A DNA stretch of 64,000 nt, taken from NCBI RefSeq assembly GCF_039536245.1, contig NZ_BAAAYN010000035.1:1-64000 (forward strand), written 5' to 3'. The notes below the pieces were generated by a model. The model did no database searches and was not told the DNA's origin. It saw only the letters and a list, made by a program, of their open reading frames with translations. Shown here in pieces: positions 16,509-51,554 of this stretch (position 1 is the first letter of the stretch; each line of letters starts with the position of its first letter). Origin of the DNA: Cryptosporangium minutisporangium (GTDB taxonomy: Bacteria; Actinomycetota; Actinomycetes; Mycobacteriales; Cryptosporangiaceae). A program made the position numbers and the translations under genes.

Positions 16509-17372
16509 TCAGGCGCCGAGCTCGGCGCGGGTGGGGAGCGACGCCATCGCGCCGTGCCGGGTGACGGTGACCGCCGCGACCCGCGTCGCCCACCGTGCGG
16601 CCTCGACGATGTCGGCGCCGTCGAGCACGGCGTCGGCGATCGCGGCGCAGAAGCTGTCACCCGCCGCGGTCGCGTCCACGGCCTTGACCTGCTCGGCCGG
16701 CACCCGGGTCGACCGCTCCGCCTCGACCACCAGGCAGCCCTGAGCCCCGAGCGTGACGACCACCGGGCCGCGGGTGCCCAGTTTCTGGGCGATCTGCACG
16801 AGGTCACCGCGGTCGACGCCGGCCAGGCCGAGCAACTCGCCCCGGTTCGGCACCAGCACGTCGACGTTGGCGAGCAGCGACGCGGCGACCGGCCGGGCGG
16901 GAGCCGGGTTCAACACCACCAGCCCGTTCGCCACCGACGCGGCCTCCTCGACCACCGCGGCGGGCACCTCCTGCTGGAGCAGCACGCAGCGGGCGCCGGC
17001 GACCAGGTCGCGATCGACCTCCACGTGGTTGTTGGCACCGGGGCTGACGACGATCGTGCTGTCGCCCTCGGGGTCGACGAACACGAACGCCTGTCCGGTC
17101 GGTCCATCGACCCGCCGGACGCCGCCGACGTCGATCTGCTCGTCGCGCAGGATGCTCAGCAGGTAGTCGCCGTCCTGAGCGCCCACCGCCCCGACCATCG
17201 CGGTGCGGCGTCCCAGGCGGGCCGCGGCCACGGCCTGGTTGCCGCCCTTGCCACCTCCGCTGCGCCGGGCGTCGCCACCGAGCAAGGTCTGGCCGGCGGC
17301 GGGCGCCTCCGGGACGTCGACCGTGACATCGACGTTGAGGCTGCCTACGACGACGATCTCGAACGAGTTCAT
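16509..17372 (-). CDS. PfkB-family sugar kinase (ribokinase-like)
   Basis: The 287-residue protein carries both PfkB signatures: the N-terminal GGGKGGNQAVAAARLG and the C-terminal DATAAGDSFCAAIADA with the catalytic Asp (normally DTTGAGD; here the second Thr is Ala). NPAPAR and VLVPNRGE are ribokinase hallmarks. It should phosphorylate ribose or a related sugar or nucleoside with ATP. The ATG beginning MNSFEIVVVGSLNVDV was chosen. It is the last gene of a run of minus-strand catabolic genes, but a 52-bp gap and an inverted repeat separate it from the cupin gene. It may therefore be read through from upstream or use its own promoter. Confidence 0.85.
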   Translation of the reverse strand: MNSFEIVVVGSLNVDVTVDVPEAPAAGQTLLGGDARRSGGGKGGNQAVAAARLGRRTAMVGAVGAQDGDYLLSILRDEQIDVGGVRRVDGPTGQAFVFVDPEGDSTIVVSPGANNHVEVDRDLVAGARCVLLQQEVPAAVVEEAASVANGLVVLNPAPARPVAASLLANVDVLVPNRGELLGLAGVDRGDLVQIAQKLGTRGPVVVTLGAQGCLVVEAERSTRVPAEQVKAVDATAAGDSFCAAIADAVLDGADIVEAARWATRVAAVTVTRHGAMASLPTRAELGA

Positions 17373-17392
17373 GGACCAACTTCTAGTTTGGT

Positions 17393-17460
17393 GAGAATAA
17401 TTCAGCCTCTCACGAGCGCTCAATTCAGGACGCTCCGCGAGGGCCGGCTGAATTATCCTC
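17393..17460. repeat. Inverted repeat upstream of the PfkB kinase
   Basis: GAGAATAATTCAGCC (17393-17407) and GGCTGAATTATCCTC (17446-17460) are inverted copies matching at 14 of 15 positions, 38 bases apart. The right arm overlaps the 3' end of the cupin gene and the left arm lies 21 bases before the kinase start. The arms are unusually AT-rich for this region. This could be an operator read by a dimeric repressor at two sites, or a structured mRNA element between the two cistrons. Confidence 0.55.
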
Positions 17461-17832
17461 ATCGGTCAGCTTGCGGGCGATGTCGGCGTAGTCCGCGCGC
17501 GGCGGCGCGAACACGTCGAGGTTGATGCAGGGCTCGGTGAGCGGCTGGATGTAGTGCTCGGCGCCGGCCGGCACCAGCAGCATCGAGCCGGCGGTCATCC
17601 GATGCGGAACGCCGTCGACGTAGTAGTCGGCCTCGCCGGCCAGGATCATCGCGAGCTGGTCGAAGTCGGCGTGCGAGTGCGGCCGGAGATCCATGCCGAC
17701 CGAGAGCGAGTGCCAGCAGAGCATGACCTCGTCGGTGCTATACACCCGGCGCCGCACGCCCGGCCGGATCACGTCCTCCGGGACATCGTCCCAGTTCACG
17801 ACCGTTCGGTAGAGCGCTTCGCTGAGCTTCAT
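17425..17832 (-). CDS. Cupin-domain protein
   Basis: The 135-residue protein is a single cupin barrel. The metal-binding motif is recognisable as RPHSHADFDQLAMILAGEAD (His, His and a glutamine/glutamate position). The second motif is GSMLLVPAGAEHYIQPL, with its His. Small cupins of this kind act as isomerases, dioxygenases or metabolite-binding regulators; the substrate cannot be told. Its ATG overlaps the TGA of the aldolase gene (ATGA), so it belongs to the catabolic operon. Confidence 0.8.
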   Translation of the reverse strand: MKLSEALYRTVVNWDDVPEDVIRPGVRRRVYSTDEVMLCWHSLSVGMDLRPHSHADFDQLAMILAGEADYYVDGVPHRMTAGSMLLVPAGAEHYIQPLTEPCINLDVFAPPRADYADIARKLTDEDNSAGPRGAS

Positions 17833-18653
17833 CGGGTTTCTCCCAGGGTCTTCCGCAGCGCGGCGGCGAGGAACTGCAGGTCGGAGCCGATCACCACGTA
17901 CCGGTCGCCGGCCGCCTCCGCGGCGGTGGCCGCGTCGGGGGTCGCACACCAGGAACCGGTGATGGTTCCGACCGCTCGGACTTCCCGGACGCGTTCGTCG
18001 AACGCCTCGGTGTTCCCGAGGCCCACGCTCACGGCGAGGTCGGTGACACCGAGGAACACGACGTCCAGGCCGCGGACGACGTCGGGCAGCGGGTCGTCGG
18101 TGGTGGCCGTTTCGATCTGGCCGACGAGGAGCGGCGGGTCGTTTCGCTCGGCGGCCAGGTAGTCGGCGAGCGGAACGCCGCTGTAGTTCGCGCCGGGGTG
18201 GGCGAGCGAGATGCTGCGGGCACCGTCCGGGGCGTAGCGTGTGGCGGCGATCAGCGCCGCGGTCTCGGCGGCGGAGCGGAGCGTGGAGAGCTGGACGCCG
18301 GCCGCGCCCGCTTCGAGCAGCCGGTTGATCAGCCCGGAGTCGACGGCCGGGATCCGCACCAGCGCGGGCAGTCCGAGCGCGGCGGCCCGGCTGACCGCGC
18401 GGCGGGCCTGCTCCTCGGAGAGCTGCGAGTGCTCCAGGTCCACCACCACGAAGTCCGCCCCTGCCGCTTTCGCGAGGTCGACGGGCTCCTCCCCGGCGAG
18501 CTTCAGAAAGGTCCCGCGCACGCGCTCGCCCGCGGCGAGGGCGGCACGCAAGCCCGAGCGCGCGGGCATCCGCGGAACGATGTCGCGGGAGGCTCGTGTG
18601 GGCGAGCTTTCCGCCACATCATTCGGCGGGTCGGCTGCGGTGGGGCCGAGCAT
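17829..18653 (-). CDS. HpcH/HpaI-family aldolase
   Basis: The protein belongs to the class II pyruvate aldolase family that cleaves 4-hydroxy-2-oxo acids to pyruvate plus an aldehyde, the final step of many aromatic meta-cleavage pathways. Family motifs are RVRGTFLKLAGEEPVDLAKA, DFVVVDLEHSQLS (metal-site Asp and Glu), the conserved ALVRIPAVD, and LLEAGAAGVQLSTL. I took the ATG that overlaps the reductase stop (TGATG), giving 274 residues. An internal ATG at 18569 gives the usual family N-terminus and is a serious alternative. In context it would release pyruvate from the ring-cleavage product. Confidence 0.85.
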   Translation of the reverse strand: MLGPTAADPPNDVAESSPTRASRDIVPRMPARSGLRAALAAGERVRGTFLKLAGEEPVDLAKAAGADFVVVDLEHSQLSEEQARRAVSRAAALGLPALVRIPAVDSGLINRLLEAGAAGVQLSTLRSAAETAALIAATRYAPDGARSISLAHPGANYSGVPLADYLAAERNDPPLLVGQIETATTDDPLPDVVRGLDVVFLGVTDLAVSVGLGNTEAFDERVREVRAVGTITGSWCATPDAATAAEAAGDRYVVIGSDLQFLAAALRKTLGETR

Positions 18654-19651
18654 CACGCCACCGCGTCGGAACTGTGGCCGGGGGTGGTCTTCCACGCCGC
18701 GTTCACCAGCGGTGCGATGTGGTTGATCGCTGTCGCGGCCTCACCGAAGCCGACCGAGATGAGCGCGACCTTGCCGTCGTACATCGCGATGTCCCCGGCC
18801 GCGAAGACCCGCGGAAGGTTCGTCCGCTGCGCGCGATCGACGAGGATCCGGCGCCGCTTGATCTCCATGCCCCAGTCGGCCATCGGGCCCAGGTCGGTGA
18901 GGAACCCGATCGCCGCGACGATCGTCTGCACGTCCCGGGAGACGGTCTCCTTGGTCTCGACGTGCTCCAGCGTGAGCGACTCGACCGCCGCGGAGCCGGA
19001 GACCTCGACCACCTCGTACGGGGTGACCAGCTCGACCGAGGACTCGCGCAGTCTCTCCACGCTCTTCTCGTGCGCCCGGAACGCGTCCCGGCGGTGCACC
19101 AGCGCGACGCTGTTCGCCAGCGGCTCCAGCGCCAGCGCCCAGTCGACCGCCGAGTCGCCACCGCCCACCACGACCACGTCGTGCCCGGCCAGGTCGTTCA
19201 GCCGCGGCACGAAGTACCGCAGGCCACGCCCCGCGAAGTGACCACCAGCGGGCAACTCCTTGGGCTCGAACGTGCCCATGCCGCCGGCGATCAGGACCGC
19301 ACGCGCGTGCACGGTGACGCCGGGATCGCCCGGCGTGCTCGCAACTGCGTCCACGGTGACGCCGTCGTCGCGGACCTCGATCGACGTCGCCCGTTGCTCC
19401 AGCAGGAACGTCGGCTTCGATTGCTGGGCCTGCGCGCACAGCGCGTCGACCAGGTCCTGGCCCCGCACGGCCGGGAACCCCGCGACGTCGTAGATGTTCT
19501 TCTCCGGGTACAGAGCGGCGAGCTGCCCGCCGACCTCGGGCAGCGAGTCCATCACCGCGACCGACATCCCGCGGAACCCGGCGTAGTACGCGCCGTAGAG
19601 CCCTACCGGACCGGCGCCGATGATCAGGACATCGACCTCTACTTGGTCCAC
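18653..19651 (-). CDS. Ferredoxin/flavodoxin-NADP+ reductase (thioredoxin-reductase-like)
   Basis: The 332-residue flavoprotein has an N-terminal FAD-binding GxGxxG (IIGAGPVGLYGAYYAGFRGM), the MDSLPEVGGQLAALYPEK segment and an internal NADPH-binding VVVVGGGDSAVDWALAL. It lacks the CxxC redox pair of thioredoxin reductase, which identifies the YumC-type ferredoxin-NADP+ reductase. Its GTG start overlaps the end of the ferredoxin gene by 13 bases. The pair most likely supplies electrons to the Rieske oxygenase encoded in the same run of genes. Confidence 0.9.
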   Translation of the reverse strand: MDQVEVDVLIIGAGPVGLYGAYYAGFRGMSVAVMDSLPEVGGQLAALYPEKNIYDVAGFPAVRGQDLVDALCAQAQQSKPTFLLEQRATSIEVRDDGVTVDAVASTPGDPGVTVHARAVLIAGGMGTFEPKELPAGGHFAGRGLRYFVPRLNDLAGHDVVVVGGGDSAVDWALALEPLANSVALVHRRDAFRAHEKSVERLRESSVELVTPYEVVEVSGSAAVESLTLEHVETKETVSRDVQTIVAAIGFLTDLGPMADWGMEIKRRRILVDRAQRTNLPRVFAAGDIAMYDGKVALISVGFGEAATAINHIAPLVNAAWKTTPGHSSDAVA

Positions 19652-19956
19652 GACGCCACCTCCTCGTGGTCGGCCGGGAGCGGCGGCACCTTCCGCGCGC
19701 CACCCGGCGAACCGAGCCCGAGCGTGACGAACACCGTCTCGTTGATCGTGGCGAACTGCTCCTTGTCCCCCGGCAGGTCGTCCTCGTGGTAGATCGAGAC
19801 GACCGGGCAGGCGGGCTCGCAGCGACCGCAGTCGACGCACTCCTCCGGGTTGATGTACATCATCCGCGGACCGGGGTAGATGCAGTCGACCGGGCACTCC
19901 TCGATGCAGGAGCGGTCTTGGACGTCGATGCAGGCATCGGTGACGACGTAGGCCAT
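19639..19956 (-). CDS. 7Fe ([3Fe-4S][4Fe-4S]) ferredoxin
   Basis: The 105-residue protein has the bacterial 7Fe ferredoxin pattern. C9, C17, C21 and C25 lie in ACIDVQDRSCIEECPVDC; C40, C43, C46 and C50 lie in CVDCGRCEPACP. The position normally occupied by Cys12 is Val, as usual when the first cluster is 3Fe-4S. It is encoded directly before its reductase. It is the probable electron carrier between that reductase and the Rieske oxygenase, although generic FdxA roles are possible. Confidence 0.92.
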   Translation of the reverse strand: MAYVVTDACIDVQDRSCIEECPVDCIYPGPRMMYINPEECVDCGRCEPACPVVSIYHEDDLPGDKEQFATINETVFVTLGLGSPGGARKVPPLPADHEEVASWTK

Positions 19957-19975: not shown

Positions 19976-21148
19976 TCAGGCCGAGGTGGCGTTGCCGCGC
20001 CACTCGGTCAGTTCCTGGGACACGCCGTGCACGAACACCGCGGCGGGCTCGAGCCGGGGCGCCTCGATCGTGTTGCCGGCCGCGTCCGGAAGGACCGCGG
20101 TACCGGCTTCCTTCAGCACGGTGACGTGCGCGGGTCCGCCGACGGTCAGCGAGCCGTACCCCTCGGCGTCCAGGCCGAGCAGCTTGGCCGGGGCGGTGGT
20201 GACCCTGGGCAGGATCTCCGACATCGGCACGCCCAGCGCGAGGAACTTCGACATCGACGTCACCAGGTCGAACACCGGGCCGCGCCAGTTGCGGGCGGAC
20301 GTGTCGGAGCTGAGCACGTCCGGCAGGAAGCCCTCCGCGATCGCGGGCTTCGCGACCTCGAACGAGAGGTTGCTGCGGCCGTGCGCCGAGTCGTAGAGGA
20401 CGCCGCGCTCGCGGGCCTTGTACACCTCACGGAGCACGGCGCCGTTCTCGTCGAGGATGCCGTTCTCCTTGCCGGTGTAGCAGTGGGCGATGATGTCGCC
20501 GGGGCGCAGCCGGTCGAGGATCTCCGGCAGCGTCAGCGCGGTCTCGCCGATGTGGACCATCACCGGCAGGCCGGCCTGCTCGCCGAGCGCGATGGCCTTC
20601 TCCAGCAGCGGCACGATCCGGTCGCCCAGCACGTCCTCGGAGAGCCGGATCTTGAAGCCGCGGACGACGTCCGGGTTCTCGGCGGCGGTGGCGAGCGCGT
20701 CCTCGACGTTGAACGTGTCGGGGTTGAGCAGCTCGCCGTAGCGGAAGTCGATCAGGCCGAGCACCGAGACGTTGAGGAAGTTGACGATCCGCATGACGGT
20801 CGGCTCGACCACCAGCGTGCGGAACGCGGGGAACGTGGAGGCACCGGCGGTACCGGCGTCCGCGGCGGCGACGACGCCCCGGCGCAGGTGGGCCTCGTCC
20901 TGCGGAGCGCCCACCTTCGAGACCTTGTGGAAGATGTGCGTGTGCCCCTCGACCAGGCCGGGCAGCACGGATGCGCCGGTCACGTCGACGATCTGGGCGG
21001 TCGCCGCGGCCTCGCTGTCGGCCAGGCCGGTGCCGATCGCGGCGATCTTGCCGTCGGCGATCGCGAGGTCGGCGACCTCGTTGCGCCCGGAGGCCGAGTC
21101 GAGCACGGTGCCGCCGCGCAGCACGGTGTCGTAGCGAGCTTCAGACAT
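19976..21148 (-). CDS. Amidohydrolase/deacetylase-family metallohydrolase
   Basis: The 390-residue enzyme starts at the ATG preceded by GGAGGTCTCC. It is a TIM-barrel amidohydrolase. Metal-binding HTH occurs in LPGLVEGHTHIF, with further ligands likely in VMVHIGET and IIAHCYTGKE and the catalytic Asp in LSSDTSARNW. The initial LRGGTVLDSASGRNEVADLA is the beta-sandwich of dihydroorotase-like proteins. Members hydrolyse cyclic amides, imides or N-acyl groups. In this operon it could open or deacylate a nitrogen-containing aromatic or its product, but the substrate is not predictable. Confidence 0.85.
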   Translation of the reverse strand: MSEARYDTVLRGGTVLDSASGRNEVADLAIADGKIAAIGTGLADSEAAATAQIVDVTGASVLPGLVEGHTHIFHKVSKVGAPQDEAHLRRGVVAAADAGTAGASTFPAFRTLVVEPTVMRIVNFLNVSVLGLIDFRYGELLNPDTFNVEDALATAAENPDVVRGFKIRLSEDVLGDRIVPLLEKAIALGEQAGLPVMVHIGETALTLPEILDRLRPGDIIAHCYTGKENGILDENGAVLREVYKARERGVLYDSAHGRSNLSFEVAKPAIAEGFLPDVLSSDTSARNWRGPVFDLVTSMSKFLALGVPMSEILPRVTTAPAKLLGLDAEGYGSLTVGGPAHVTVLKEAGTAVLPDAAGNTIEAPRLEPAAVFVHGVSQELTEWRGNATSA

Positions 21149-21211
21149 GGAGACCTCCACGGGGCGGGTCCCGCGGCGGGATCCCGGAACTGGGGATGGG
21201 GCTGAGGAATT

Positions 21212-22030
21212 TCAGGCGACGGTGTTCACGAGCGGCACCAGGCCGCCGACCGCGATCGTCACTTCCTGGCCGGGGCGCAGGTAGTCGTTCAAGTCCTGCC
21301 CGGTGCCGGGCGGCGTGCCGGTGAGGACGACGTCCCCGGGTTCCAGCCGCACGTAGCGGGAGAGCCAGGACAACAGGTCGGGCACCTCGAAGATCAGGTC
21401 GGCGGTCGTGCTGTTCTGCCGCTGCTCGCCGTCCACCCACGAGGCCACCGGGATCGCGTTCGGGTCGTTCAGATCGCTGATCGGGACCATCGTGGGGCCG
21501 AGGGGCGCGCAGCCCGGGAAGCCCTTCGCCAGCGTCGGGGTGCCGGTCGCCTTCATGACGTCTCGCGCGGTGGTGTCGTTCGCGGCGAGGACGCCGGCGA
21601 CCGCGTCCCAGACGTCCTCGGGCCGCGCGTCCGAGAGCGGGCGACCGAGCACGACGCCGACCTCCGCTTCGTAGTCGAACTGCGTGGTGAGGTCGGTCGG
21701 GATCCGCAGGGTCGCGCGGTGGGCGGCGAGGGCGGTGGCCGGCTTCAGGAACAGGATCGGCTCAGTGGGAACCGGCCGCCCGGTGAGTGCCGCTTTGCCG
21801 TGGTAGTTGAGCCCGACGCCCCAGACCGTGGTGTCCAGTCCTAACGGCGGGACGACGACCTCGTCCAGCTGGGTCTTGGGCAGTCGGCGCGTGACCGGCG
21901 CCTGCTCGACCTCGGCCAGCGTCCGGCCGGCTTTCAGCAGCCACCGCAGGTTGGGGAACGGCAGGTCGACGACGGCCAGCTCGTCGCCCTCGACCCGGGC
22001 GATGCCGTAGCGGGTGACGAGCGTTTCCAT
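21212..22030 (-). CDS. Fumarylacetoacetate hydrolase (FAH)-family protein
   Basis: The 272-residue protein has the FAH catalytic core. Conserved elements are TVWGVGLNYHGKA, EPILFLKPATAL, the metal-binding FDYEAEVGVVLG (E-x-E), NDTTARDVMKATG, LAKGFPGCAPLGP and the C-terminal LEPGDVVLTGTPPGTG. The family hydrolyses or decarboxylates beta-diketo acids and oxalocrotonate-type intermediates of ring cleavage. It fits after the extradiol dioxygenase and before the HpcH/HpaI aldolase. A candidate regulatory motif shared with other promoters of the island lies just upstream, so it may begin its own transcript. Confidence 0.88.
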   Translation of the reverse strand: METLVTRYGIARVEGDELAVVDLPFPNLRWLLKAGRTLAEVEQAPVTRRLPKTQLDEVVVPPLGLDTTVWGVGLNYHGKAALTGRPVPTEPILFLKPATALAAHRATLRIPTDLTTQFDYEAEVGVVLGRPLSDARPEDVWDAVAGVLAANDTTARDVMKATGTPTLAKGFPGCAPLGPTMVPISDLNDPNAIPVASWVDGEQRQNSTTADLIFEVPDLLSWLSRYVRLEPGDVVLTGTPPGTGQDLNDYLRPGQEVTIAVGGLVPLVNTVA

Positions 22031-22040
22031 GCCATCGATC

Positions 22041-22093
22041 TTCAGATGCGAGATCTCATCATGTCAAGTGAGACGGCGCATCTCATCGTGAGA
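22041..22093. promoter_or_regulatory. Candidate IclR-regulon operator upstream of the FAH gene
   Basis: The segment contains TGCGAGATCTCATCATG followed by GTGAGACGGCG (22068-22078) and CATCTCATCGTGAGAC. The 11-mer fits the core GYGAGAYGGCR that recurs upstream of three other promoters in this window. The site overlaps the stop codon of the M20-like gene and ends close to the FAH start. Confidence 0.5.
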
Positions 22094-23255
22094 CAAGAAT
22101 CCGCTCGTAGACCCGACACCAGCGGGCGAGCTCGGACACGGAGAACGTGTCGACGCGGGGATCGCCGGTGTTCGGGGCCGGACGGGGACCGAGGCGGGCG
22201 GTGGGCACGCCTGCGGCCCGGAACGCGACGCCGTCGGTGGAGCCCGTCCAGCCCGATATCGGTGGTGCTGAGTACCCAGGAGTGTGGGGGTGGAACTCGG
22301 ACGAATAGGCGTCGCACGCTACCCGGACGATCGGTGCGTCCGCGGGCGTCCCGGGGCCGTCACCGAGCAGGAGCTCATCCACGCTGACGCCGTCGAAGCC
22401 GCTCAGCGCCGCCCGCAGCGAGGCCGCGGCAGCCCCTGGCTCCACCGGCCCGGGCAGCACGAGGTAGCAGTGGAGCTCGAGCGCGGCCGGCGCGAGATCG
22501 GGCTTCTCCGGCGACCCCGCACGCAGCGCCCCGAGCCCGAACGACGCCCCGTCCTGCCGCGACGGGTCGACGCGAAGCGCCTGCTGCGTAGCGTCCGCCA
22601 CGTAGTTCGAACCCCAGGACTGAACGGCGGCGAGCAGTGCACCGGCCTGCGACAGCAGGCCGCCCGGAGGGCGCAGCAGGCCCGGCAGCATCAGCGGCCC
22701 CCAGCCCGCTTCGAGCCGGATCCGGAGGTAGAGCGCGGCCGGCTCCTGCCGCAGCACGCCCGGCGGGCCGCCCTTCGCGACGACGGCGGCGCGCGGGCGG
22801 GGAAACGCCGTCAGGTACTCGGTGACGCCGGTGTCGTGCACACCCCACCGATGGGTCCCTCGGGCGGCCAGCAGGAGGTGCGCCGTGCCGCTGGCCTGCT
22901 CGGCGGCGCGCGCGAACGCGACGCCGGCCGCCGCCGCGGGCGCCTTCGCGACGCCGAGCCCGAACCCGCTCACGGTGTCGCCCTCGTGCCGGTACGGCGG
23001 CACCGGATCGTCCCGGCCGGTGATCGCCGCGTCCATCGCTGGATCGCCGGTCAGCGACGTGTCCAGGTGGGAGTAGAGCACCACGTCGGCGGGGCCGTCG
23101 CCGGTCGTCGCCAGCACGCTCGCCGAGTCGCCGCCGAGCGGGCGTACCCGCCAGTCGATCGACGGCCAGCGCGACGACGCCCAGGCGGCGAACGCCTCGG
23201 CCAACGGGCGCTCACCACCGTGCGGGCTCGCGGTGCCGGCCAGTTCACCCAGCAC
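22083..23255 (-). CDS. M20-like (ArgE/DapE) peptidase homologue with altered metal site
   Basis: The 390-residue protein has an M20 layout: the first motif YSHLDTSLTG (H63, D65), a long dimerisation insert, and the C-terminal STDGVAFRAAGVPTARLGP. The second M20 motif, normally GxGxxDMK with the bridging metal Asp, reads GFGLGVAK (residues 97-104), so that Asp is Val102. The catalytic Glu-Glu pair after the following strand is replaced by Gly-Thr-His (ARGTHRWG, residues 131-138). A single-metal or non-catalytic role is therefore likely. The GTG start is 17 bases after the dioxygenase stop. It sits in the Rieske operon, where an intact M20 member would cleave an amide or acylated amino acid. 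Confidence 0.75.
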   Translation of the reverse strand: MLGELAGTASPHGGERPLAEAFAAWASSRWPSIDWRVRPLGGDSASVLATTGDGPADVVLYSHLDTSLTGDPAMDAAITGRDDPVPPYRHEGDTVSGFGLGVAKAPAAAAGVAFARAAEQASGTAHLLLAARGTHRWGVHDTGVTEYLTAFPRPRAAVVAKGGPPGVLRQEPAALYLRIRLEAGWGPLMLPGLLRPPGGLLSQAGALLAAVQSWGSNYVADATQQALRVDPSRQDGASFGLGALRAGSPEKPDLAPAALELHCYLVLPGPVEPGAAAASLRAALSGFDGVSVDELLLGDGPGTPADAPIVRVACDAYSSEFHPHTPGYSAPPISGWTGSTDGVAFRAAGVPTARLGPRPAPNTGDPRVDTFSVSELARWCRVYERILVSR

Positions 23256-23272: not shown

Positions 23273-24484
23273 TCAGAACCGCTCCCAGTCGTCCGCCGCC
23301 GCGCGCCAGACGTCGATGTTGCGCGGGTCGCCGCCCATCCGGCGGGCCTTGTGCGTCTCGTTCTGCTCCGGCGTGAAGACCCGGTGGCCGTCGCAGAGCT
23401 CGATCCGGGGACCGAAGCGGGCGTCATACAGGTAGAACGCGATCGAGTGCGACGCCGAGTGGTTCACGATGTCGGACGCGATCTCGGTGCCCTTGTAGAG
23501 CGCCCTCGCCCGGCCACGCATGACGTGGTCGAGGCTCTTCATCTTGAAGCAGAGGTGCGCCAGGTAGAACCGGTCGTCGCGGCGCAGCGCGAGCGAGTGG
23601 TGGTACCGGTTCTCCGACCGCAGGAACGACGAAGAGCCGCGGCCCGGCGTCATCACGTAGTCGGACGCCTGGAAGCCGAGCACGTTCAGGTAGAAGTGCT
23701 GCGACTCCTCGTAGTGGTCGGTCGAGAGGAACGGGTGCACGAGCTCCACCGGCCGGTACTCGAGCAGCGGCGGCTCGGCGTACTCGTAGAACTCCCAGCC
23801 GAACTCCAGCGTGAGGCCGTTCGGGTCCTTCGTCGCGAAGCCCCGGGTGCAGACCGACGCGGTGCGCTCGTGCAGCGGGAGGATCTCCGCGCCCTCAGCC
23901 CGGAGCCGCTTCTCCAGGTCGTCGAGGACCTCCTCGGACTCGACGCTCAAGCCGATCGCCAGCGTGTCGAATTCGGTGAGGCCCGGGTCGCTGACCAGCT
24001 CGATCGAGTACTGCTCGATGCCGGCCCTGAGTTGCGCGTACTCGGGTGTACGCGCCTCCACCTGGAGACCCACGTGGTACGTGTAGAACTCGATGGCTTC
24101 GTCCAGCGCGGGGGTGGCGAGGCGGGCGAACTGAATGCCGTACGGGCCGCGCGGGCGGTTGATCACTGGCTTCTCCGATCGGAACGGCGACGGCGCGGAG
24201 AGCGTGACGATGGTCTGCTTGTCGATCACCGGTCGCCACTTCTCGCGCACGAACGTCTCGTGCGATTCGCTGTTGAGATAGGACTTGAGATCGTCTTCGT
24301 CGTCGAACTCGATCGTGAACACGTGCGACATCGTGGTGTCGCGGCTGGAGATGTTCGGCCCGAGCACGAAGCTGCGCATCTGCGGGTACTGGCTCGGGAA
24401 CGTCTCCAGCTCGGCGAGGATCGCGTCGACGGTCTCGGCCGGCACCTCCGGCTTGAACCGGAACGCGAGGACATGCCTGATCAT
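23273..24484 (-). CDS. Dabb domain-extradiol ring-cleavage dioxygenase fusion
   Basis: The 403-residue protein has an unusual two-part structure. Residues 1-97 are a Dabb (stress-responsive A/B barrel) domain beginning MIRHVLAFRFKPEVPAETVD, with SHVFTIEFDDEDDL. Residues 115-400 are two VOC modules forming a type I extradiol dioxygenase. Aligned by motif to BphC, the iron ligands would be H250 (VHPFLST), H310 (YLAHLCF) and E362 (RIELCDG). The acid-base residues would be H296 (RYHHSLAL), H346 (HSASHSIAFY) and Y351. All six are present, so it should open a catechol-type ring next to the diol. It follows the oxygenase beta-subunit gene by 14 bases. The Dabb domain may bind a reactive intermediate; its role here is unknown. 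Confidence 0.88.
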   Translation of the reverse strand: MIRHVLAFRFKPEVPAETVDAILAELETFPSQYPQMRSFVLGPNISSRDTTMSHVFTIEFDDEDDLKSYLNSESHETFVREKWRPVIDKQTIVTLSAPSPFRSEKPVINRPRGPYGIQFARLATPALDEAIEFYTYHVGLQVEARTPEYAQLRAGIEQYSIELVSDPGLTEFDTLAIGLSVESEEVLDDLEKRLRAEGAEILPLHERTASVCTRGFATKDPNGLTLEFGWEFYEYAEPPLLEYRPVELVHPFLSTDHYEESQHFYLNVLGFQASDYVMTPGRGSSSFLRSENRYHHSLALRRDDRFYLAHLCFKMKSLDHVMRGRARALYKGTEIASDIVNHSASHSIAFYLYDARFGPRIELCDGHRVFTPEQNETHKARRMGGDPRNIDVWRAAADDWERF

Positions 24485-24498: not shown

Positions 24499-24993
24499 CT
24501 ACAGGATGAAGCTGAGTCGGGCGCCCGGCTCGAGCAGCTCGTGCTCGAGGTACGCGCGGCGGTGGAGGAACTTCAGTTCGCCGTCCTCGTTCAGCGCCAC
24601 GTCGTGGTGGTAGCGCCCCACGTACGTGTGGTGGGTGTGGTCGCGGAACCGGTTGATCAGGAAGTTCGCCTTCAGCTCGATCCCGTCCTTGCCGCGGATC
24701 ACCCGGACGTTGGTCACCATCCGGTGCGTCCGCGAGTGCGGGTTCTCCGCGTGCGCCTTCCGGCTCTTCAGCCGCTTGACGCGTGCCTTGAGCAGGTCCC
24801 AGTCGTCGAGGACGAAGAAGCCACCGCCGGTGCGGTCCCAGCCCTGGTAGTCCGTGGTCGGCACCTCGAACGTGCCGCCCTCCTCGAACAGGGCGAGCCA
24901 GGCGTCGAGGTGCCACTCGTCGAGGAGCATGGCCTCCTGGTAGAGGAAGTCCTCGGCTTGTTCTCGCGTGACGGTCACCGTGGGGGCGCTCAT
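24499..24993 (-). CDS. Aromatic-ring-hydroxylating dioxygenase, beta (small) subunit
   Basis: The 164-residue protein has the cystatin/NTF2-like fold of ring-hydroxylating dioxygenase beta subunits. Family features include the N-terminal QAEDFLYQEAMLLDEWHLDA, WLALFEEGG and the mid-region SRTHRMVTNVRVI. It has a structural role, packing against the alpha trimer. Its ATG overlaps the TGA of the alpha-subunit gene (ATGA), so the two are translated in step, as expected for an alpha3beta3 enzyme. Confidence 0.92.
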   Translation of the reverse strand: MSAPTVTVTREQAEDFLYQEAMLLDEWHLDAWLALFEEGGTFEVPTTDYQGWDRTGGGFFVLDDWDLLKARVKRLKSRKAHAENPHSRTHRMVTNVRVIRGKDGIELKANFLINRFRDHTHHTYVGRYHHDVALNEDGELKFLHRRAYLEHELLEPGARLSFIL

Positions 24994-26339
24994 TCGTTGC
25001 CGCCTTCGTAGCTCGTCGCGGTGACGCCGGGAACCTTGCCCAGCGACTGGTCCCAGTGACGCCAGAAGCTGCGCATGGCGCCCTCGTCGATCGAGCGACC
25101 CTTCTCGCCCTTGGCCTCCCGCTCCATGCCGCGGGACATGTCGCTCCAGTCGTTGAAGCCGCGACTGTCGCCCTTGCTCGCCTCGATGCCGCGCTGCACG
25201 GCCTCGTAGGCCTCGATGTCGTCCGGCGTCGCCAGGCCACCCGGGCCCACGAAGCTGGTCATCGTCTTCAGCCGCATCGCGCGCGCCTCGTCGTCCTCGT
25301 CCGTCGGCACGTACTGCCAGGCGCGCACGTCGGTGCGGCCGGGCGCCACCGGCTCGAGCTGGCGGATCGTCAACGCTTCGAGGTCGAAGAAGAGCAGGTT
25401 CGGCCAGACGAACAGGATCCGGCTGGCGTCGCCGATCGTGTCCGCGCGCTCTTGGCCGAGGCGCTGCGCCATCGCCTTCCGGTTCGCTTCCGTGCGGGCC
25501 TTCTCGGCCTCGCCGAAACGCGGCTCCCAAAGCATGCCCAGCCGGCCGTTGTGCCCGGTGAGCACCAGCATCGAGTGCCCGTTACCGAGGTCGTAGGCGT
25601 ACTGGTCGTCGTCGGTGACTGCGAAGCCGGTCTCCCGGAGGTAGCCGACGAACGTGTTGTGGGTCGGCGAGAAGTGGTAACCGTCCATCGCGTTCTCGAC
25701 CGCGAGCTTCCAGTTGCCCTTGACGCCGTAGCGCTGGATACCGGGGAGCGTCGTCATGCCGGTCGCGGACTGCTCGGCGGCCATCGAGAGGACGTCGGCG
25801 GCCTCGCCGAGGTGCTCGAGCAGCGGCGGTACGTCCGGATCGAACGAGACGAAGACGAAGCCCTCGTGGATGTCGAGCTTCGCGACCGGACGCAGGTCCA
25901 TCGAGCCCTTGAACCGGTCGAGCTCGGCGTAGGCGTCGTCGCCGGGGAGCGCGGAGAGCTTGCCGGACGAGTTGAACGTCCAGGCGTGGTAGAAGCACTG
26001 GAAGTTCCGGGCGTTGCCGGACTCGTCGCGGCAGACCACGGTGCCGCGGTGCGGGCAGGAGTTGAGGAAGGCCCGGACCACCCCGTCGCCGCCCCGGACG
26101 AAGATCAGCGGCTTCCCGCCGAGCGTCCGCACCTTGTAGTCGTTCTTCTTCGGGATCTCGGTCTCGTGGCCCAGGTAGAGCCACGAGTGGCCCCAGATCC
26201 GCTCGCGCTCGGCCTGGAAGACCTCCGCCGAGCGGTACGCCTCACGGTTGACCCGGAAGGTCAACGCGTTCCAGTCCTGCGCGATCAGGCCACCGTGGCC
26301 GGTCTCGACCAGACCTTCAGCAATTGTCTGTGTCATCAT
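24990..26339 (-). CDS. Aromatic-ring-hydroxylating dioxygenase, alpha subunit (Rieske)
   Basis: The 449-residue catalytic subunit has a Rieske [2Fe-2S] site CPHRG (C95, H97) plus CFYHAW (C115, H118). Its mononuclear iron site is NAMDGYHFSPTH, with bridging D219 and ligands H222 and H227. This is the architecture of benzoate/cumate/salicylate-type oxygenases, which add O2 across an aromatic ring using electrons from a ferredoxin and reductase. Both redox partners are encoded downstream on the same strand. The start is the first of two adjacent ATGs, after CGAGGACCG. The promoter region is shared with the divergent IclR gene. The exact aromatic substrate cannot be told from sequence alone. Confidence 0.93.
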   Translation of the reverse strand: MMTQTIAEGLVETGHGGLIAQDWNALTFRVNREAYRSAEVFQAERERIWGHSWLYLGHETEIPKKNDYKVRTLGGKPLIFVRGGDGVVRAFLNSCPHRGTVVCRDESGNARNFQCFYHAWTFNSSGKLSALPGDDAYAELDRFKGSMDLRPVAKLDIHEGFVFVSFDPDVPPLLEHLGEAADVLSMAAEQSATGMTTLPGIQRYGVKGNWKLAVENAMDGYHFSPTHNTFVGYLRETGFAVTDDDQYAYDLGNGHSMLVLTGHNGRLGMLWEPRFGEAEKARTEANRKAMAQRLGQERADTIGDASRILFVWPNLLFFDLEALTIRQLEPVAPGRTDVRAWQYVPTDEDDEARAMRLKTMTSFVGPGGLATPDDIEAYEAVQRGIEASKGDSRGFNDWSDMSRGMEREAKGEKGRSIDEGAMRSFWRHWDQSLGKVPGVTATSYEGGNE

Positions 26340-26354
26340 CGGTCCTCGTTGTGA

Positions 26355-26403
26355 GAGATGCCATCTCGCATTACGACATGGTGTATTGCACAGTGCGTAC
26401 TGT
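26355..26403. promoter_or_regulatory. Operator region between Rieske operon and IclR gene
   Basis: GAGATGCCATCTC (26355-26367) is a perfect inverted repeat around one central base. On the minus strand it belongs to TCGTAATGCGAGATGGCATC, which contains the shared core GCGAGATGGCA. A second imperfect palindrome, ACAGTGCGTACTGT (26390-26403), lies closer to the IclR gene. The first site starts 16 bases upstream of the Rieske alpha start codon. The two elements would suit control of the oxygenase operon and autoregulation by IclR. Confidence 0.6.
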
Positions 26404-26494
26404 CAACGGACCCAGCGCGGCCGATCCGGTTGATAGCATCACGCCTGCTGAGATAAGCCCCCGTGGTCGCAGTCGGCCACAAAAAGGACAATCT

Positions 26495-27346
26495 ATGCTT
26501 GAGCCAGTGCCCGAAATCGCCCCTGTGTCCCCTGCGCCCGACGAGGAGGCTCGAGCTGGCCTGTTCGTCTCCGACGAAGAACTTCCTCGCGCGGAGCGGG
26601 GCACACCCGCGATCCAGGCGGTCGAGCGGGCCGCGACCATCCTCGGCGCGTTCAGCGTCGGCCGACCGCGGCTGAGCCTCAACGAGCTGACCGCCCGGCT
26701 GGGCACCAGCAAGGCCACCGCGCACCGCTACACGAAGGCGCTGCGGTCGGTGAACCTGCTCCGCTACGACGAGCGCGAGGCCCTCTACTCGCTCGGCCCC
26801 CAGGTGCTGACGCTCTCCGCGGCCGCGCGCGCCGGGCTGCCGATCATCACGATCGCCGGCCCGTACATGGAGGAGCTGGTGCGCGAGGCCGGCGAGACCG
26901 TCGTGCTCTCGGTGTGGGACGGCGACACCGCGGTCGTCGTCCGCGTCGACGACAACACCGACCGCACCGTGCGGATCAGCGTCCGCACGGGGGCGCGGCT
27001 GTCGATGTCCCGGTCGGCGCAGGGCCGGGTGTTCTGCGCGTTCCTGGCCGAGGACGAGGTGCCCGGGCTGGCCAGCCTGCTGCGCCGCAACCCGGGACTC
27101 CGGCAGGAGCTGACCGCGATCCAGGAGAACGGCATCTGCGTGAACACCCCGGCCGACAACGGCGTCCGGACGATCGCCGCGCCGGTGTTCCAGGACGCGC
27201 AGATCGTCGCCACGATGGGGATCGTCGGCACCACCGCGGCGGTGGCCGACGAGACGGGCTCCCCCGCCGCGCGGTCGCTGCTGCGGGTCTCCCGCTCGCT
27301 CACCCAGGAACTCGGATCCGTGGGCCCGGTGACCCGCGGCATCTAG
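26495..27346 (+). CDS. IclR-family transcriptional regulator
   Basis: The 283-residue protein starts at an ATG preceded by AAAAAGGACA. An unstructured N-terminus of about 45 residues leads to the winged helix (AIQAVERAATILGAFSVGRP, LSLNELTARLGTSKATAHRY) and the IclR effector-binding GAF-like domain (GETVVLSVWDGDTAVVVRVD ... SAQGRVFCAFL ... GVRTIAAPVF). IclR proteins commonly govern aromatic-acid catabolism. It is divergent from the Rieske operon and is the only IclR in the window. It is thus the best candidate to read the GYGAGAYGGCR motif found at four promoters. Confidence 0.9.
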   Translation: MLEPVPEIAPVSPAPDEEARAGLFVSDEELPRAERGTPAIQAVERAATILGAFSVGRPRLSLNELTARLGTSKATAHRYTKALRSVNLLRYDEREALYSLGPQVLTLSAAARAGLPIITIAGPYMEELVREAGETVVLSVWDGDTAVVVRVDDNTDRTVRISVRTGARLSMSRSAQGRVFCAFLAEDEVPGLASLLRRNPGLRQELTAIQENGICVNTPADNGVRTIAAPVFQDAQIVATMGIVGTTAAVADETGSPAARSLLRVSRSLTQELGSVGPVTRGI

Positions 27347-27450: not shown

Positions 27451-29643
27451 TCACAGGTCGAGCGTCAGCCGGTCGGATGCACACCGGCTCACGCAGATCA
27501 TCATCGTGCTGCCGTCGGCCCGCTCGGCGGCGGACAGGATGCTGTCCCGGTGCTCGGCCTGCCCGGCCAACACCCGGGTCTCGCACGAACCGCAGTAGCC
27601 CTCTTCGCAGTCGTACGGCACCCCGGGGACGACGTCCCGGATCGCTTCGAGCAGCGTGCGGTCGTCCGGAACGGTGAGCGTGCGCCCCGCCCGGGCCAGC
27701 GTCACCTCGAACGAACGCGCATCCGCGGGGATCGCCGGGATGCGCTCGGCGCCGCCGCCGGTGAACCGCTCGACGTGCAGTTCCAGGCCGCCGACGGTCT
27801 GCTCCACCGCGGTGAGCAGCCCCTCCGGCCCGCAGCAGTAGACCTTCGTCCCGGGCTTCGCCGCCGTGAACGCCGCGGCCAGATCCGGGTGCCCGAACTC
27901 GTCCTGGGGCACCAGCTGCACCCGGTCGCCGTACTGTTCCTTCAGCCTGCCCGCGAACGCCATCGACGCGCGGGTGCGTCCGCCGTAGAGCAGCGTCCAG
28001 TCGGCGCCGCGTGCGTCGGCGGCCCGCACCATCGCGCTGATCGGGGTGATGCCGATCCCGCCGGCGACGAACAGATACCGCTCGGCGTCGACGAGCGGGA
28101 AGTGGTTCTTCGGCCCACGCACCCGCACGGTGACGCCGGGCGCCAGCGTCTCGTGCACCTCGGCGGATCCGCCCCGGCCGGCCGGCTCGTGCAGCACCGC
28201 GACGCGGTAGGACGACGTGTCGGCAGGGTCGCCGCAGAGCGAGTACTGCCGCACCTTGCCCGACGGAAGGATCAGGTCGAGGTGCGCGCCCGGCTCCCAG
28301 CCCGGGAGCTGGCCGTCGCCGACCAACCGCAGCGACACGACACCGTCGGCGATCGGCTCCACCGCGGCGATCGTGAGGAGCTGGACGTCGAGACCGGTCG
28401 TGGTCTTCGTGGCCGGGATCCCACGCTTGCGACCCGGCGTGAACGTCACCGGGATCGCGTCCCAACCGGACTGGTTGCCCCACGACTCGGTGGGTGTCGC
28501 CCCGACCGGGTCGAGCGTGTAGTCCGGCAGCCGCTCCAGGACCTGGGTGATCATCTCCCGGAACATCGCCCGCGCCAGGTGGGCACCGGCGCAGCGGTGG
28601 GTGCCGATGCCGAAACTGAGGTGCCCGCGCGGATCGCGGTCGAGGACGACCTTCTCGGGCTCGGGGAAGACCTCCGGATCGTGGTTCGCCGCGATCCACG
28701 GGATCAGCACCCGCTCGCCGCGCATCACCGGGCACGCGCCGATCGTCGTGTCCTTCATGATCGTCCGAGCCATCGACTGCGACGGCGCGAACTTCCGCAG
28801 GAACTCCTCGGTGGCGACGTCGAGCAGCGCGGGCTCGCGGATCAGCCGCTCCCGGTCCTCCGGGTGCTGCGCCAGATGAACCAGCGTCGAGCCGGTCAGC
28901 GACGTCGTGGTGTCGACGCCGCCGGCGATCAGCAGGAAGATCACCGAGCCCAGCTCGTCGTCGGTGAACGGTTCGCCGCTCGGCTTGACCTGCCGGACCA
29001 GCCAGGAGATCGCGTCGCTCGTCGGCTCGGCGCGACGGTCGTTCATCAGCTGGAAGATGCGGTCGCCCATGAAGCCGAGGGCTTCCCCGCCGCGGCGTTC
29101 CCGCTCGCTGCCGGGGATCGCCGCGAACAGGTCGTGGATCGGGCCGGCGAGCCGCTTCCAGTCCTCGCGCGGGAACCCGAGCCAGTCGAGCGTCACCGCG
29201 GTCGGGACCGGGTTGGTCAGCTGGTGCACCAGGTCGGCGCTGCCGTCCTCGATGAACCCGTCGATGACCTCGGTGACGTGCTTGGCGATCATCGGGACCA
29301 GCGCGTCGACCGCGGACCGGCTCAGGAGCGGGTTGATCAGCTCGCGGTACGGCGTCGACTCCGGCGGGTCGAGCTCGATCGGGTACTGCGGGAGCGCCTT
29401 GCTCTCCGGAATGACGAACGCGATCCCGTCGACGTCGCCCCGGGCGGACGAGAACGTCGCGTCGTCACGGGCGATCCGCGCGATGTCTTCGTACCGGGTG
29501 GTCACCCAGTGACCGCCGTAGGACTCCGTCCACGCGACCGGGCACTCGGCTCGGAGTTCGGCGTACGGACGCACCGGGTCGATCGTGAACTCCGGGGCGT
29601 GATGGTCGAATTCGACCGTCGGTCGTGCTGCTTCCACTGCCAT
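27451..29643 (-). CDS. Self-sufficient cytochrome P450 fused to phthalate-dioxygenase-type reductase (CYP116B-like)
   Basis: The 730-residue protein carries a whole electron-transfer chain. Residues 1-400 are a P450, with I-helix AGGVDTT (240-246), EFLR (280-283) and heme loop FGIGTHRCAGAHLAR with Cys351. Residues about 415-510 bind flavin (RQYSLCGD), about 520-620 bind NAD(P)H (LFVAGGIGITPI and CCGPEGL), and the C-terminus is a plant-type [2Fe-2S] ferredoxin (C679, C684, C687, C717). This order matches class VII P450-PFOR enzymes such as P450RhF. It should hydroxylate or dealkylate a small aromatic without separate partners. The ATG beginning MAVEAARPTV was chosen; its spacing to GTGGAG is short, and a longer N-terminus cannot be excluded. 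Confidence 0.92.
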   Translation of the reverse strand: MAVEAARPTVEFDHHAPEFTIDPVRPYAELRAECPVAWTESYGGHWVTTRYEDIARIARDDATFSSARGDVDGIAFVIPESKALPQYPIELDPPESTPYRELINPLLSRSAVDALVPMIAKHVTEVIDGFIEDGSADLVHQLTNPVPTAVTLDWLGFPREDWKRLAGPIHDLFAAIPGSERERRGGEALGFMGDRIFQLMNDRRAEPTSDAISWLVRQVKPSGEPFTDDELGSVIFLLIAGGVDTTTSLTGSTLVHLAQHPEDRERLIREPALLDVATEEFLRKFAPSQSMARTIMKDTTIGACPVMRGERVLIPWIAANHDPEVFPEPEKVVLDRDPRGHLSFGIGTHRCAGAHLARAMFREMITQVLERLPDYTLDPVGATPTESWGNQSGWDAIPVTFTPGRKRGIPATKTTTGLDVQLLTIAAVEPIADGVVSLRLVGDGQLPGWEPGAHLDLILPSGKVRQYSLCGDPADTSSYRVAVLHEPAGRGGSAEVHETLAPGVTVRVRGPKNHFPLVDAERYLFVAGGIGITPISAMVRAADARGADWTLLYGGRTRASMAFAGRLKEQYGDRVQLVPQDEFGHPDLAAAFTAAKPGTKVYCCGPEGLLTAVEQTVGGLELHVERFTGGGAERIPAIPADARSFEVTLARAGRTLTVPDDRTLLEAIRDVVPGVPYDCEEGYCGSCETRVLAGQAEHRDSILSAAERADGSTMMICVSRCASDRLTLDL

Positions 29644-30262
29644 CTCCACGGCATCTGAAGCTTGGTGCGCGGTGTTTGCCCCGGCCGCGCCACCGGAGTT
29701 GCCCTTCAAGGTAAGCGGGAGTGCGGTCACCGTCAATCGTTCCGAGACAACGTCCCGCAATGTGTTTCGGTCCTGCGTCTCTGCAGGTCAGAGCCTTCTT
29801 CTGGACGCTACGCGGCGCAGCGCCGCAGGTCGTCGCGGCAACAAACTCTTCACATCCCCGCCGCCAGGAGCACAATCCCGGACCCCTAGCACTGTGCCCC
29901 ACAGCCGACACCGGTCCCACCGACGGGCGGGCGGGCGCCGGGCGGCGGGCACCGATTTTCGGGAAGACCACCTCACCGCGCGCTCCGAGACGTTGGCTTT
30001 CGGGAAAACCACCTCACGGCGGGCGGCAGCACGTTGACGTTCGGGACAACCACCGCACGGCGGGCGGCAGCACGTTGACTTTCGGGAAAACCACCTCACG
30101 GCGGGCGGCAGCACGTTGACGTTCGGGACAACCACCCGCGCCGTGCCCGTGGAGGGCGGGGTTTCGGGAAATCCACCCCGCCGCACTGCCGCGCCGCCAG
30201 CTCGCCGCGCCGCCACCTCGTCGCGCGCCGCATCCGCGCCGCCGCGGGGGGCGGGCCGCCCA
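29644..30262. other. Non-coding interval between P450 and aryl-alcohol dehydrogenase genes
   Basis: I see no convincing gene here. The left half should hold the P450 promoter; a GCGGCGC/GCGCCGC mini-hairpin lies near 29812-29826. The right half is dominated by the 41-bp tandem repeat described separately. The last 75 bases are very GC-rich (GCCGC runs) and directly follow the alcohol dehydrogenase stop, so they may serve as its terminator. Confidence 0.6.
29957..30185. repeat. 41-bp direct tandem repeat (about 5.5 units)
   Basis: TTTCGGG or GTTCGGG begins at 29957, 29998, 30039, 30080, 30121 and 30162, an exact 41-base period. Units read TTCGGGAAAACCACCTCACG or TTCGGGACAACCACCGCACG followed by GCGGGCGGCAGCACGTTGAC. 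The three central units are nearly identical, alternating between GGGAAAACCACC and GGGACAACCACC; the outer ones are degenerate. Units abut without spacers. The array lies between the P450 gene and the alcohol dehydrogenase gene. Confidence 0.9.
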
Positions 30263-31345
30263 CTAGAGCGTCAGGACGGCCTTGACGACGTCTCCGCGCC
30301 TCGTGGCGGCGGCGGCCTCGTTGATGTCGGCGAACGCGTACTGCGCCATCAGCTTCTCCACCGGGAAGCGGCCGGCCTCCTGCCAAGCCAGCAACTGCGG
30401 CACCAGCACCTGCGGCACCGCGCTCCCGGAGATCACCCCGGTGACCGTCCGCCCATTCAGTAGCGTCCGCCACTCCACTTCGACGTTCTCGCTCGGCCCG
30501 ACGCCGACGACCGCGCATGTCCCCCGGGTGTGCAGCGACGCGACGGCCGCCTTCACGACGTCGGCGCGCCCGGTGGTGTCCACCGACCCGTCGAGGCCGT
30601 CCGGGACGATCGCCCGGATCCGCTCGACGACGTCGCCTTCGCGGGAGTCCAGCACGTGAGTGGCTCCGACCTCGGCCGCGGTCTGCAGCCGTCCGGGGCT
30701 GACGTCCACCGCGATCACGGTCTGCGCCCCGGACGCCGCGGCGGCCATCACCGACGAGAGCCCGACCGCACCCGCGCCGAACACCGCCACCGCACTCTCC
30801 GGCCCGGGCCGCAGGATGTTGACGATCGTCCCGGCCCCGGTCATGAACCCGCAGGTGAACGGACCGGCGCTCCGCAGGTCGGCGGATGCCGGCAGCTTGA
30901 CCACGCTGCGGACGTTCGCCACCGCGTGCGTGGCGAACGACGACTGGCCGAGGAAGTGCCCGTACACCGGCTGCCCGTCGATGCGCAGCGCCGACGACCC
31001 GTCCGCGCGTGCGCCGGCGAAGTTCAGTGCGTCGAACTGCGCGCAGTACGACGGCGACGCCGTCCGGCACTGCTTGCAGACGCCGCAGGACGCGAACGCG
31101 AGCGCCACCGGATCGCCGGGCTGTAGTTCGGTGACTCCGGCCCCGACCGCTTCGACCACCCCGGCGCCTTCGTGGCCGAGCACCGCGTTGGTGGGCAGGA
31201 AGGTGGCGAAGTGCAGGTCGGTGGCGCAGATACCGACGCTGCTCAGGCGCACCAGCACCTCGTCGGCACGGGGCTCGTCGAGCTGCGCGGGCAGCAACGA
31301 GAACACCCCGGATGGGTCGGTGACGGCGGCGACGGTGATGTCCAC
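30263..31345 (-). CDS. Zinc-dependent aryl-alcohol (benzyl-alcohol-type) dehydrogenase
   Basis: The 360-residue medium-chain dehydrogenase has a catalytic zinc site (SSVGICATDLH and LGHEGAGVVEAVG), a structural zinc lobe CGVCKQCRTASPSYC, and the NAD-binding VAVFGAGAVGLSSVMAA. The segment HFLGQSSFATHAV is typical of aryl-alcohol dehydrogenases such as XylB/AreB. It would oxidise a benzylic or allylic alcohol to the aldehyde. The GTG start follows CGGAGACCCCTC. It is divergent from the aldehyde dehydrogenase gene, the natural next step, and both share an upstream copy of the island motif. Confidence 0.9.
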   Translation of the reverse strand: MDITVAAVTDPSGVFSLLPAQLDEPRADEVLVRLSSVGICATDLHFATFLPTNAVLGHEGAGVVEAVGAGVTELQPGDPVALAFASCGVCKQCRTASPSYCAQFDALNFAGARADGSSALRIDGQPVYGHFLGQSSFATHAVANVRSVVKLPASADLRSAGPFTCGFMTGAGTIVNILRPGPESAVAVFGAGAVGLSSVMAAAASGAQTVIAVDVSPGRLQTAAEVGATHVLDSREGDVVERIRAIVPDGLDGSVDTTGRADVVKAAVASLHTRGTCAVVGVGPSENVEVEWRTLLNGRTVTGVISGSAVPQVLVPQLLAWQEAGRFPVEKLMAQYAFADINEAAAATRRGDVVKAVLTL

Positions 31346-31361
31346 GAGGGGTCTCCGATAT

Positions 31362-31384
31362 CTCACTATGGCGAGACGGCATCT
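31362..31384. promoter_or_regulatory. Candidate IclR-regulon operator between alcohol and aldehyde dehydrogenase genes
   Basis: CACTATGGCGAGACGGCATC (31364-31383) contains the core GCGAGACGGCA. Without gaps it matches the Rieske-promoter site TCGTAATGCGAGATGGCATC at 14 of 20 positions. It lies 19 bases before the alcohol dehydrogenase start and 37 bases before the aldehyde dehydrogenase start, so one bound protein could govern both directions. Confidence 0.55.
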
Positions 31385-31419
31385 TGACTTCCGAGATAGT
31401 AGACGTCAAGACTCGCTTC

Positions 31420-42481: not shown

Positions 42482-42559
42482 CGTGGGTTTCTCCAATCTG
42501 GCCACTGCACGTGGCGAGTGGGTACTGCGGCCCAGCCGGATCTCACCGGCGACTCGGGC

Positions 42560-44652: not shown

Positions 44653-44681
44653 CGCGACCTCAGGACGCGGGCGCGCTGATC

Positions 44682-44728: not shown

Positions 44729-44736
44729 ACTGCGCG

Positions 44737-47693: not shown

Positions 47694-47774
47694 CAGAACA
47701 GCGCCAATCCGAGCCGCGGTGCGGCCCCCCGCGGCCCCCAACCCCTCGTCGCGCGGCCCCCCGTGGCGCGCATC

Positions 47775-51552: not shown

Positions 51553-51554
51553 GC

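Follow-up and report, generated by a model that had tools for sequence, protein, structure and literature searches.

Lumichrome catabolism has been reconstituted from Nocardioides (Pimelobacter) simplex ATCC 6946 by Sinha and colleagues (PMC12746152). In that pathway a Rieske dioxygenase, LumA-D, opens a quinoxaline dione, LumE, a 46 kDa extradiol catechol dioxygenase, converts the flavin-derived catechol to 4-methyl-6-carboxypyrone, and LumW, LumY and LumX take the pyrone to pyruvate and acetoacetate (PMC12746152). According to a commentary, the LumE step opens the ring, decarboxylates and recyclises the product and releases oxamic acid (PMC12752717); since it includes decarboxylation and recyclisation, this step exceeds plain extradiol cleavage. 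The words "Dabb", "barrel", "cyclase" and "fusion" do not occur in the main text of the report on the reconstitution (PMC12746152), and no description of a Dabb-extradiol fusion as such was found among the matches listed from the open-licence literature.

We analysed a stretch of 64,000 nucleotides from Cryptosporangium minutisporangium (contig NZ_BAAAYN010000035.1; hereafter the window). Positions 24484..23273 of the minus strand are open in one frame over 403 codons and encode a predicted protein of 403 residues. The gene starts with an ATG that has (G)AAGGGGG directly 5' of it, and it begins 14 nt past the stop codon of a Rieske beta subunit gene. As the first-pass annotation had proposed, an N-terminal Dabb domain and a C-terminal extradiol dioxygenase are joined in one protein. 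Pfam places Dabb (PF07876) at residues 2-93 (24206..24481), with 68.8 bits against a gathering cut-off of 25 (E 6.9e-19), and after it finds VOC/Glyoxalase in two stretches (E 1.4e-14), which make up the two VOC modules of the type I extradiol dioxygenase part (23276..24160). An AlphaFold model based on 46 sequences had a mean pLDDT of 89.9, its weak parts being the linker (residues 103-107) and the tail (391-403). Residues of about 110-395 of the model superposed on BphC, HsaC and XylE with Z of 30-32 over about 270 residues; the structure prediction of the full protein that had been called for thus confirms the two-module VOC fold of the type I extradiol dioxygenases. The match lists of Foldseek and VIA were filled by the dioxygenase part, so the assignment of the Dabb fold comes from Pfam and from the profile search described below.

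In an alignment of 46 chosen rows (A2), with near-copies and one frameshifted relative (L073) excluded, the iron ligands H250, H310 and E362 and the acid-base residues H296 and Y351 were invariant (46/46), as first annotated. The remaining residue of the earlier assignment, H346, did not hold: position 346 is His in 3 and Thr in 41 of the 46 rows, whereas H342, nine residues N-terminal of Y351, is His in all of them and, unlike H346, aligns with a His of 3b59. By this alignment, the other acid-base histidine is H342, not H346, and the 2-His-1-carboxylate iron site together with the acid-base residues of type I extradiol dioxygenases is present in every row. We take the roles of these residues to be those generally known for BphC and XylE. 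The protein shares with BphC, HsaC and XylE the two-module VOC fold, the 2-His-1-Glu site and the acid-base His/His/Tyr, but is only about 20% identical to them and, unlike them, carries an N-terminal Dabb domain. We rejected an ordinary catechol, biphenyl or homoprotocatechuate dioxygenase as candidates, as the scores against the NCBIfam equivalogs were far under the cut-offs and none was passed (catechol 2,3-dioxygenase, 66.6 bits against 320; BphC, 64.1 against 366; HpaD, 49.3 against 321).

The identity of the protein came from its relative in P. simplex ATCC 6946 (L023), which is also fused and is 62-63% identical over 403 residues, end to end. Among four matches in the P. simplex genome, this fused protein was the sole full-length one. 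Its gene lies directly 3' of Rieske genes and 5' of a lumF-type gene, and gene order and sizes beyond it agree with the published locus (PMC12746152). Position and size identify the P. simplex fused protein as LumE; we assigned the Lum letters of the P. simplex genes ourselves. The window gene likewise lies between a Rieske beta gene and a lumF-type gene, in the company of lumW, lumX and lumY relatives, and it has the same Dabb-dioxygenase architecture, operon position and catalytic residues as P. simplex LumE. On these grounds of homology and position, the window protein is a member of the LumE kind, a known kind, and its substrate is probably a flavin-derived catechol bearing an oxamate group rather than a simple catechol or protocatechuate. 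The first-pass annotation knew of no characterised fusion of Dabb with a ring-cleavage enzyme; a characterised one does exist, because the P. simplex relative, LumE by position and size, is the enzyme reconstituted in vitro (PMC12746152).

We then examined the relatives of the Dabb domain with a profile built from 26 chosen Dabb domains. In a search of the PDB, the best relative was SP1, and the named enzymes among the relatives were olivetolic acid cyclase (OAC; 5b0e, E 1.6e-7) and a hydroxynitrile lyase (5xzt, E 4.8e-7). All 26 domains keep Tyr69 and His75, and 25 keep each of His4 and His54. These residues (H4, H54, Y69 and H75) align with His5, His57, Tyr72 and His78 of OAC, which we take to be its functional residues, and the window Dabb has the full OAC-type set. 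OAC and the lyase, to both of which it is related by profile, differ from it in being, presumably, stand-alone plant proteins with other substrates. SP1 has Leu at the place of His75 and keeps the other three residues. His or Tyr at these positions is in part general to Dabb proteins, as the conservation of three of the four in SP1, a non-enzyme, indicates. Nevertheless, because His75 and Tyr69 are invariant in the LumE-type domains and SP1 has Leu at position 75, a catalytic pocket is likely to have been kept.

The domain-architecture search suggested at the outset found many further fused genes. A scan with one genome per species yielded 57 loci, of which 52 were close relatives (L022-L073) and five held distant dioxygenases only (L074-L078). 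The gene was fused in 35 of the 52 close loci, so the fusion is not unique but common in actinobacteria. In ten others (Microtetraspora and Micromonospora) the Dabb domain is a separate cistron preceding the dioxygenase gene, one locus (L057) is cut by a contig end, and six (L066, L067, L068, L069, L070 and L072) have no Dabb beside the dioxygenase. A fused or adjacent arrangement is accordingly found in 45 of the 52. For three of the six, the Dabb gene is elsewhere: in the same cluster in L066 and L068, and next to an aldolase gene on a different contig in L072. The genomes of L067, L069 and L070 gave no LumE-type Dabb at E<=0.001, and these three dioxygenase-bearing genomes imply that the domain is not indispensable. 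Dabb lies beside an aldolase gene in L066 and L093, and within the cluster in L092. Among 61 genomes (the window's own and 60 relatives), the gene was fused in the window's, three congeners (G001-G003) and G049, and split into Dabb and dioxygenase genes with a four-base overlap in G018. A separate Dabb cistron, which would have undone the original proposal, thus exists in G018 and the ten loci of the scan but not in the window, where there is one frame. In a tree built from 58 dioxygenase parts, the fused state required two changes, and a single change sufficed in none of 200 bootstrap trees; a single origin of the fusion was not rejected by an AU test on the same parts (p 0.279). The Dabb domain of the LumE type and its history of fused, split and absent states are new here. 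On plasmids, one of 50 records with a match has a full-length relative (Streptomyces sp. NBC_00841, 57% identical). The congener G001 bears, besides the fused gene, a Dabb-less paralogue (L020, on C13; 40% identical), preceded by its own Rieske alpha and beta genes and followed by a BMP-type gene.

What the Dabb domain contributes may be considered in the light of the published reaction. In the pathway that we propose, the Rieske dioxygenase (the LumA-D relatives) would make an oxamate-bearing catechol from a flavin-derived quinoxaline, and the extradiol part would cleave it. The ring-opened product would then lose CO2 and oxamate and close to the 6-carboxypyrone, to be hydrolysed, hydrated and split by the LumW, LumY and LumX relatives; the window protein would, by homology, carry out the same catechol-to-pyrone step as LumE. 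The Dabb domain could offer an OAC-like acid-base pocket, formed by His75 and Tyr69 with His4 and His54, that assists decarboxylation and ring closure after cleavage. By analogy with OAC we advance this role tentatively, at a little under even odds. The earlier suggestion that the Dabb part cyclises a ring-opened product is in keeping with the pyrone formed by the relative LumE (PMC12746152), but the Dabb-less genomes, together with the two loci in which Dabb adjoins an aldolase gene, argue that its part in decarboxylation and ring closure is neither strict nor exclusive.

A Dabb domain that is structural only, dimerising or stabilising the dioxygenase in the manner of the stress protein SP1, with closure being spontaneous or effected by the dioxygenase part, seems to us unlikely, although it has points in its favor. 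The profile has SP1 as its best relative in the PDB, versions without Dabb exist in three genomes, and the text of the report on LumE names no second domain (PMC12746152). However, in L066, L092 and L093 a stand-alone Dabb neighbours other genes of the pathway, where a tether would be needless, and it is at His75, invariant along with Tyr69 in the LumE-type domains, that SP1 has Leu.

The surroundings of the gene bear on what the enzyme acts upon. Between 16.5 and 60 kb, the window has genes related to LumC-F, N, OPQR, T, U, V and W (30-68% identical), as well as to LumA, B, X and Y. On the minus strand, upstream of the fused gene, are the Rieske beta subunit gene, LumD-like (24499..25011; Pfam Ring_hydroxyl_B, 61% identical to the P. 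simplex copy), and that of the alpha subunit, LumC-like (24990..26339; 68% to the P. simplex copy), the product of which scores far under the cut-off of each NCBIfam family listed. Downstream, on the same strand, follow genes for a LumF-like putative metallohydrolase (22083..23255; 41% to LumF, no Pfam family), a LumV-like FAA hydrolase (21212..22030; 53%), a LumW-like amidohydrolase or pyrone hydrolase (19976..21160; 68%), a LumB-like ferredoxin of the Fer4 type (19639..19956; assigned by position), a LumA-like ferredoxin reductase (18653..19897; 56%, the listed frame starting too far upstream), a LumX-like HpcH/HpaI aldolase (17829..18695), a LumY-like cupin or dienedioate hydratase (17425..17949) and a PfkB-family kinase (16509..17462), whose best NCBIfam match, ribokinase, was at 253 bits, under the cut-off of 300. 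The LumF-like gene, directly 3' of the dioxygenase gene, is kept in at least 40 of the 52 loci. The published work found no role for LumF (PMC12746152); as a guess, the LumF-like protein may act on the oxamate part.

Beyond the Rieske genes lie an IclR-family regulator (26324..27346, plus strand), a LumU-like P450 fused to reductase and ferredoxin domains (27451..29760, minus; 53%), a LumT-like alcohol dehydrogenase (30263..31366, minus; 30%), a LumN-like aldehyde dehydrogenase (31384..32871, plus; Pfam Aldedh, 58%) and a molybdate importer (38630..41336, plus), with ModA and ModB over the NCBIfam cut-offs and the ATPase under that for ModC. The importer is an odd presence in the middle of the locus, as the window has no LumJ-like molybdenum enzyme; an ABC-ATPase frame stands at the same place in G001-G003. 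Further on, all on the minus strand, are genes for a TauD-type dioxygenase (41396..42505), an amidase (46029..47741), an ABC importer with a BMP-type binding protein, two permeases and an ATPase (47775..52628; LumOPQR-like by position), an amidohydrolase that is a remote LumM relative (53330..54796; 27-32%) and an acetamidase/formamidase-family protein (58800..59933). The window gene order recurs in 80 kb of each of G001-G003, with synteny over 41396-59933 (TauD type, SnoaL, aldo/keto reductase, FGGY kinase, amidase, BMP-type importer, LumM-like, PucR and acetamidase family); this second half of the locus would make up a variant upper pathway.

The locus departs from that of P. simplex in its upper pathway. 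The published upper genes lumH-M do not accompany it as a set, LumM being represented by the relative of 27-32% only. No relatives of LumH, I, J or L were found in the window, in the 80 kb of each of G001-G003, or in 60 kb of G018 and of G049. The locus carries instead genes of the TauD and SnoaL types and genes for an aldo/keto reductase, an FGGY kinase, an amidase, an acetamidase-family protein and a ribokinase-like protein; it differs from the P. simplex locus in having other hydrolases and a TauD-type gene and no lumH/I/J/L relative nearby. Among the 52 loci, LumH occurs in at least 6, the TauD type in at least 20 and the ribokinase in at least 13, these being lower bounds from related rows, with flanks of at most 7 kb and score thresholds of our choosing; within such flanks, LumH or LumJ never occurs together with the TauD type or the ribokinase. 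In the genome of the window, the best relatives of LumH (32%, with the Nocardioides soli copy as query) and LumM (29-32%) span 29-32%. A LumJ query, over a shorter stretch, matched six xanthine-dehydrogenase-like genes, the best at 39%, on another contig, and the genome may therefore hold a distant LumJ. For LumI the search covered the window and the loci, and LumL gave nothing at E<=1e-10 in four genomes including the window's, in a search that had no positive control. With LumH, I, J and L absent, the upper pathway, and hence the exact substrate, may differ. We conclude that the locus is a variant lum cluster in which the lower-pathway genes are kept, and that the membership of the enzyme in the LumE kind is independent of the upper genes.

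Possibly, the substrate of the locus is not a flavin but a different ortho-diamino heterocycle, be it a quinoxaline or some other natural product. The missing LumH, I, J and L relatives, the TauD-type, amidase, FmdA-type and SnoaL genes in their stead and a Rieske alpha subunit far below each listed NCBIfam cut-off would all suit such a substrate. Against it, the LumU-like P450, the LumOPQR-like importer, the LumN-like dehydrogenase and the lower-pathway genes are retained, the ribokinase-like gene is compatible with the release of ribose, and the molybdate importer is compatible with a LumJ-type molybdenum step encoded elsewhere. We regard this substrate as rather improbable.

It is more doubtful still that Dabb catalyses another step of the lower pathway, such as converting the open forms 40/41 into one another or an isomerisation on the aldolase side, and is fused for co-expression only. 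In L066 and L093 Dabb does adjoin the aldolase gene and not the dioxygenase gene, but an arrangement with the dioxygenase, fused or adjacent, is far commoner (45/52). Moreover, the pathway closed in vitro without a separate isomerase, although the LumE used included its Dabb domain (PMC12746152). Finally, although the copy in Dactylosporangium roseum (L073) does carry a frameshift, at 7504-7948 within the dioxygenase part, there is practically no chance that the fusion is a sequencing or gene-calling artefact: the same single-frame architecture in the three congeners (83-95% identical) and G049 (60%) means that it is no assembly error, and with the 34 further genomes in which the frame is open the fused genes beyond the window number 38.

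The linker between the Dabb and dioxygenase parts appears to hold a second start. Within it, a Shine-Dalgarno-like GGAG (24173..24176, minus strand; p 0.015 against synonymous codons) precedes an in-frame GTG at codon 107 (24164..24166, minus strand), the predicted internal start of a Dabb-less dioxygenase. Across a set of 39 fused genes (that of the window, L003-L006 and 34 of the 35 fused scan loci, L073 being excluded), an in-frame ATG, GTG or TTG was present in the linker of 31, in each of them with a Shine-Dalgarno-like motif upstream (31/31); at other in-frame start codons the motif was found in 70 of 668 cases. No linker start was present in the other eight of the 39, namely seven Actinomadura and Rhizohabitans. 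We redrew synonymous codons from each gene's own usage and took anti-Shine-Dalgarno pairing as the statistic. Pairing reached p<0.05 in 23 of the 31 genes and at one of 186 control codons, for which six were sampled per gene with fewer redraws each. The rows are related to each other, Streptomyces making up 12 of the 31. Those under 0.05 included the window genus, both Nanopelagicales, Streptomyces, four of the five Nocardioides/Pimelobacter rows and L049; G049 (0.083), the five Geodermatophilaceae (0.08-0.19), Pseudonocardia (0.26) and L041 (0.86) missed it. Because the protein sequence of the linker varies while the motif and the start are kept, the pattern appears to reflect selection for a ribosome-binding site and suggests two products. 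A working site in the linker would allow both the full-length enzyme and a Dabb-free dioxygenase to be made.

Taken as a whole, we consider it probable that the window gene is the LumE of this strain and that the linker start also yields a Dabb-free dioxygenase, with the aid of the Dabb domain in closure as a more tentative part of this reading. A bolder version, which we think unlikely, would have the nested pair form a mixed oligomer in which the Dabb subunits close the pyrone, in a locus for an alternative riboflavin pathway; there, the TauD-type oxygenase, the amidases and the ribokinase-like kinase would replace some or all of lumH-L, perhaps akin to the lost "Pseudomonas RF" route (urea and oxamide).

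An odd domain fusion is hereby tied to a concrete pathway, the breakdown of vitamin B2, whose enzymes were described in 2025. New here are the unremarked domain, its modular history, the conserved OAC-type His and Tyr residues, the probable nested start and the variant locus. An enzyme credited with a one-enzyme conversion bears a second domain, which could account for decarboxylation and closure, and its fused, split and absent forms are natural controls. The internal start retained in most of the fused genes would be a case of one gene with two products, and the variant locus suggests that many actinobacterial clusters of the lum type have an upper pathway other than the reconstituted one.
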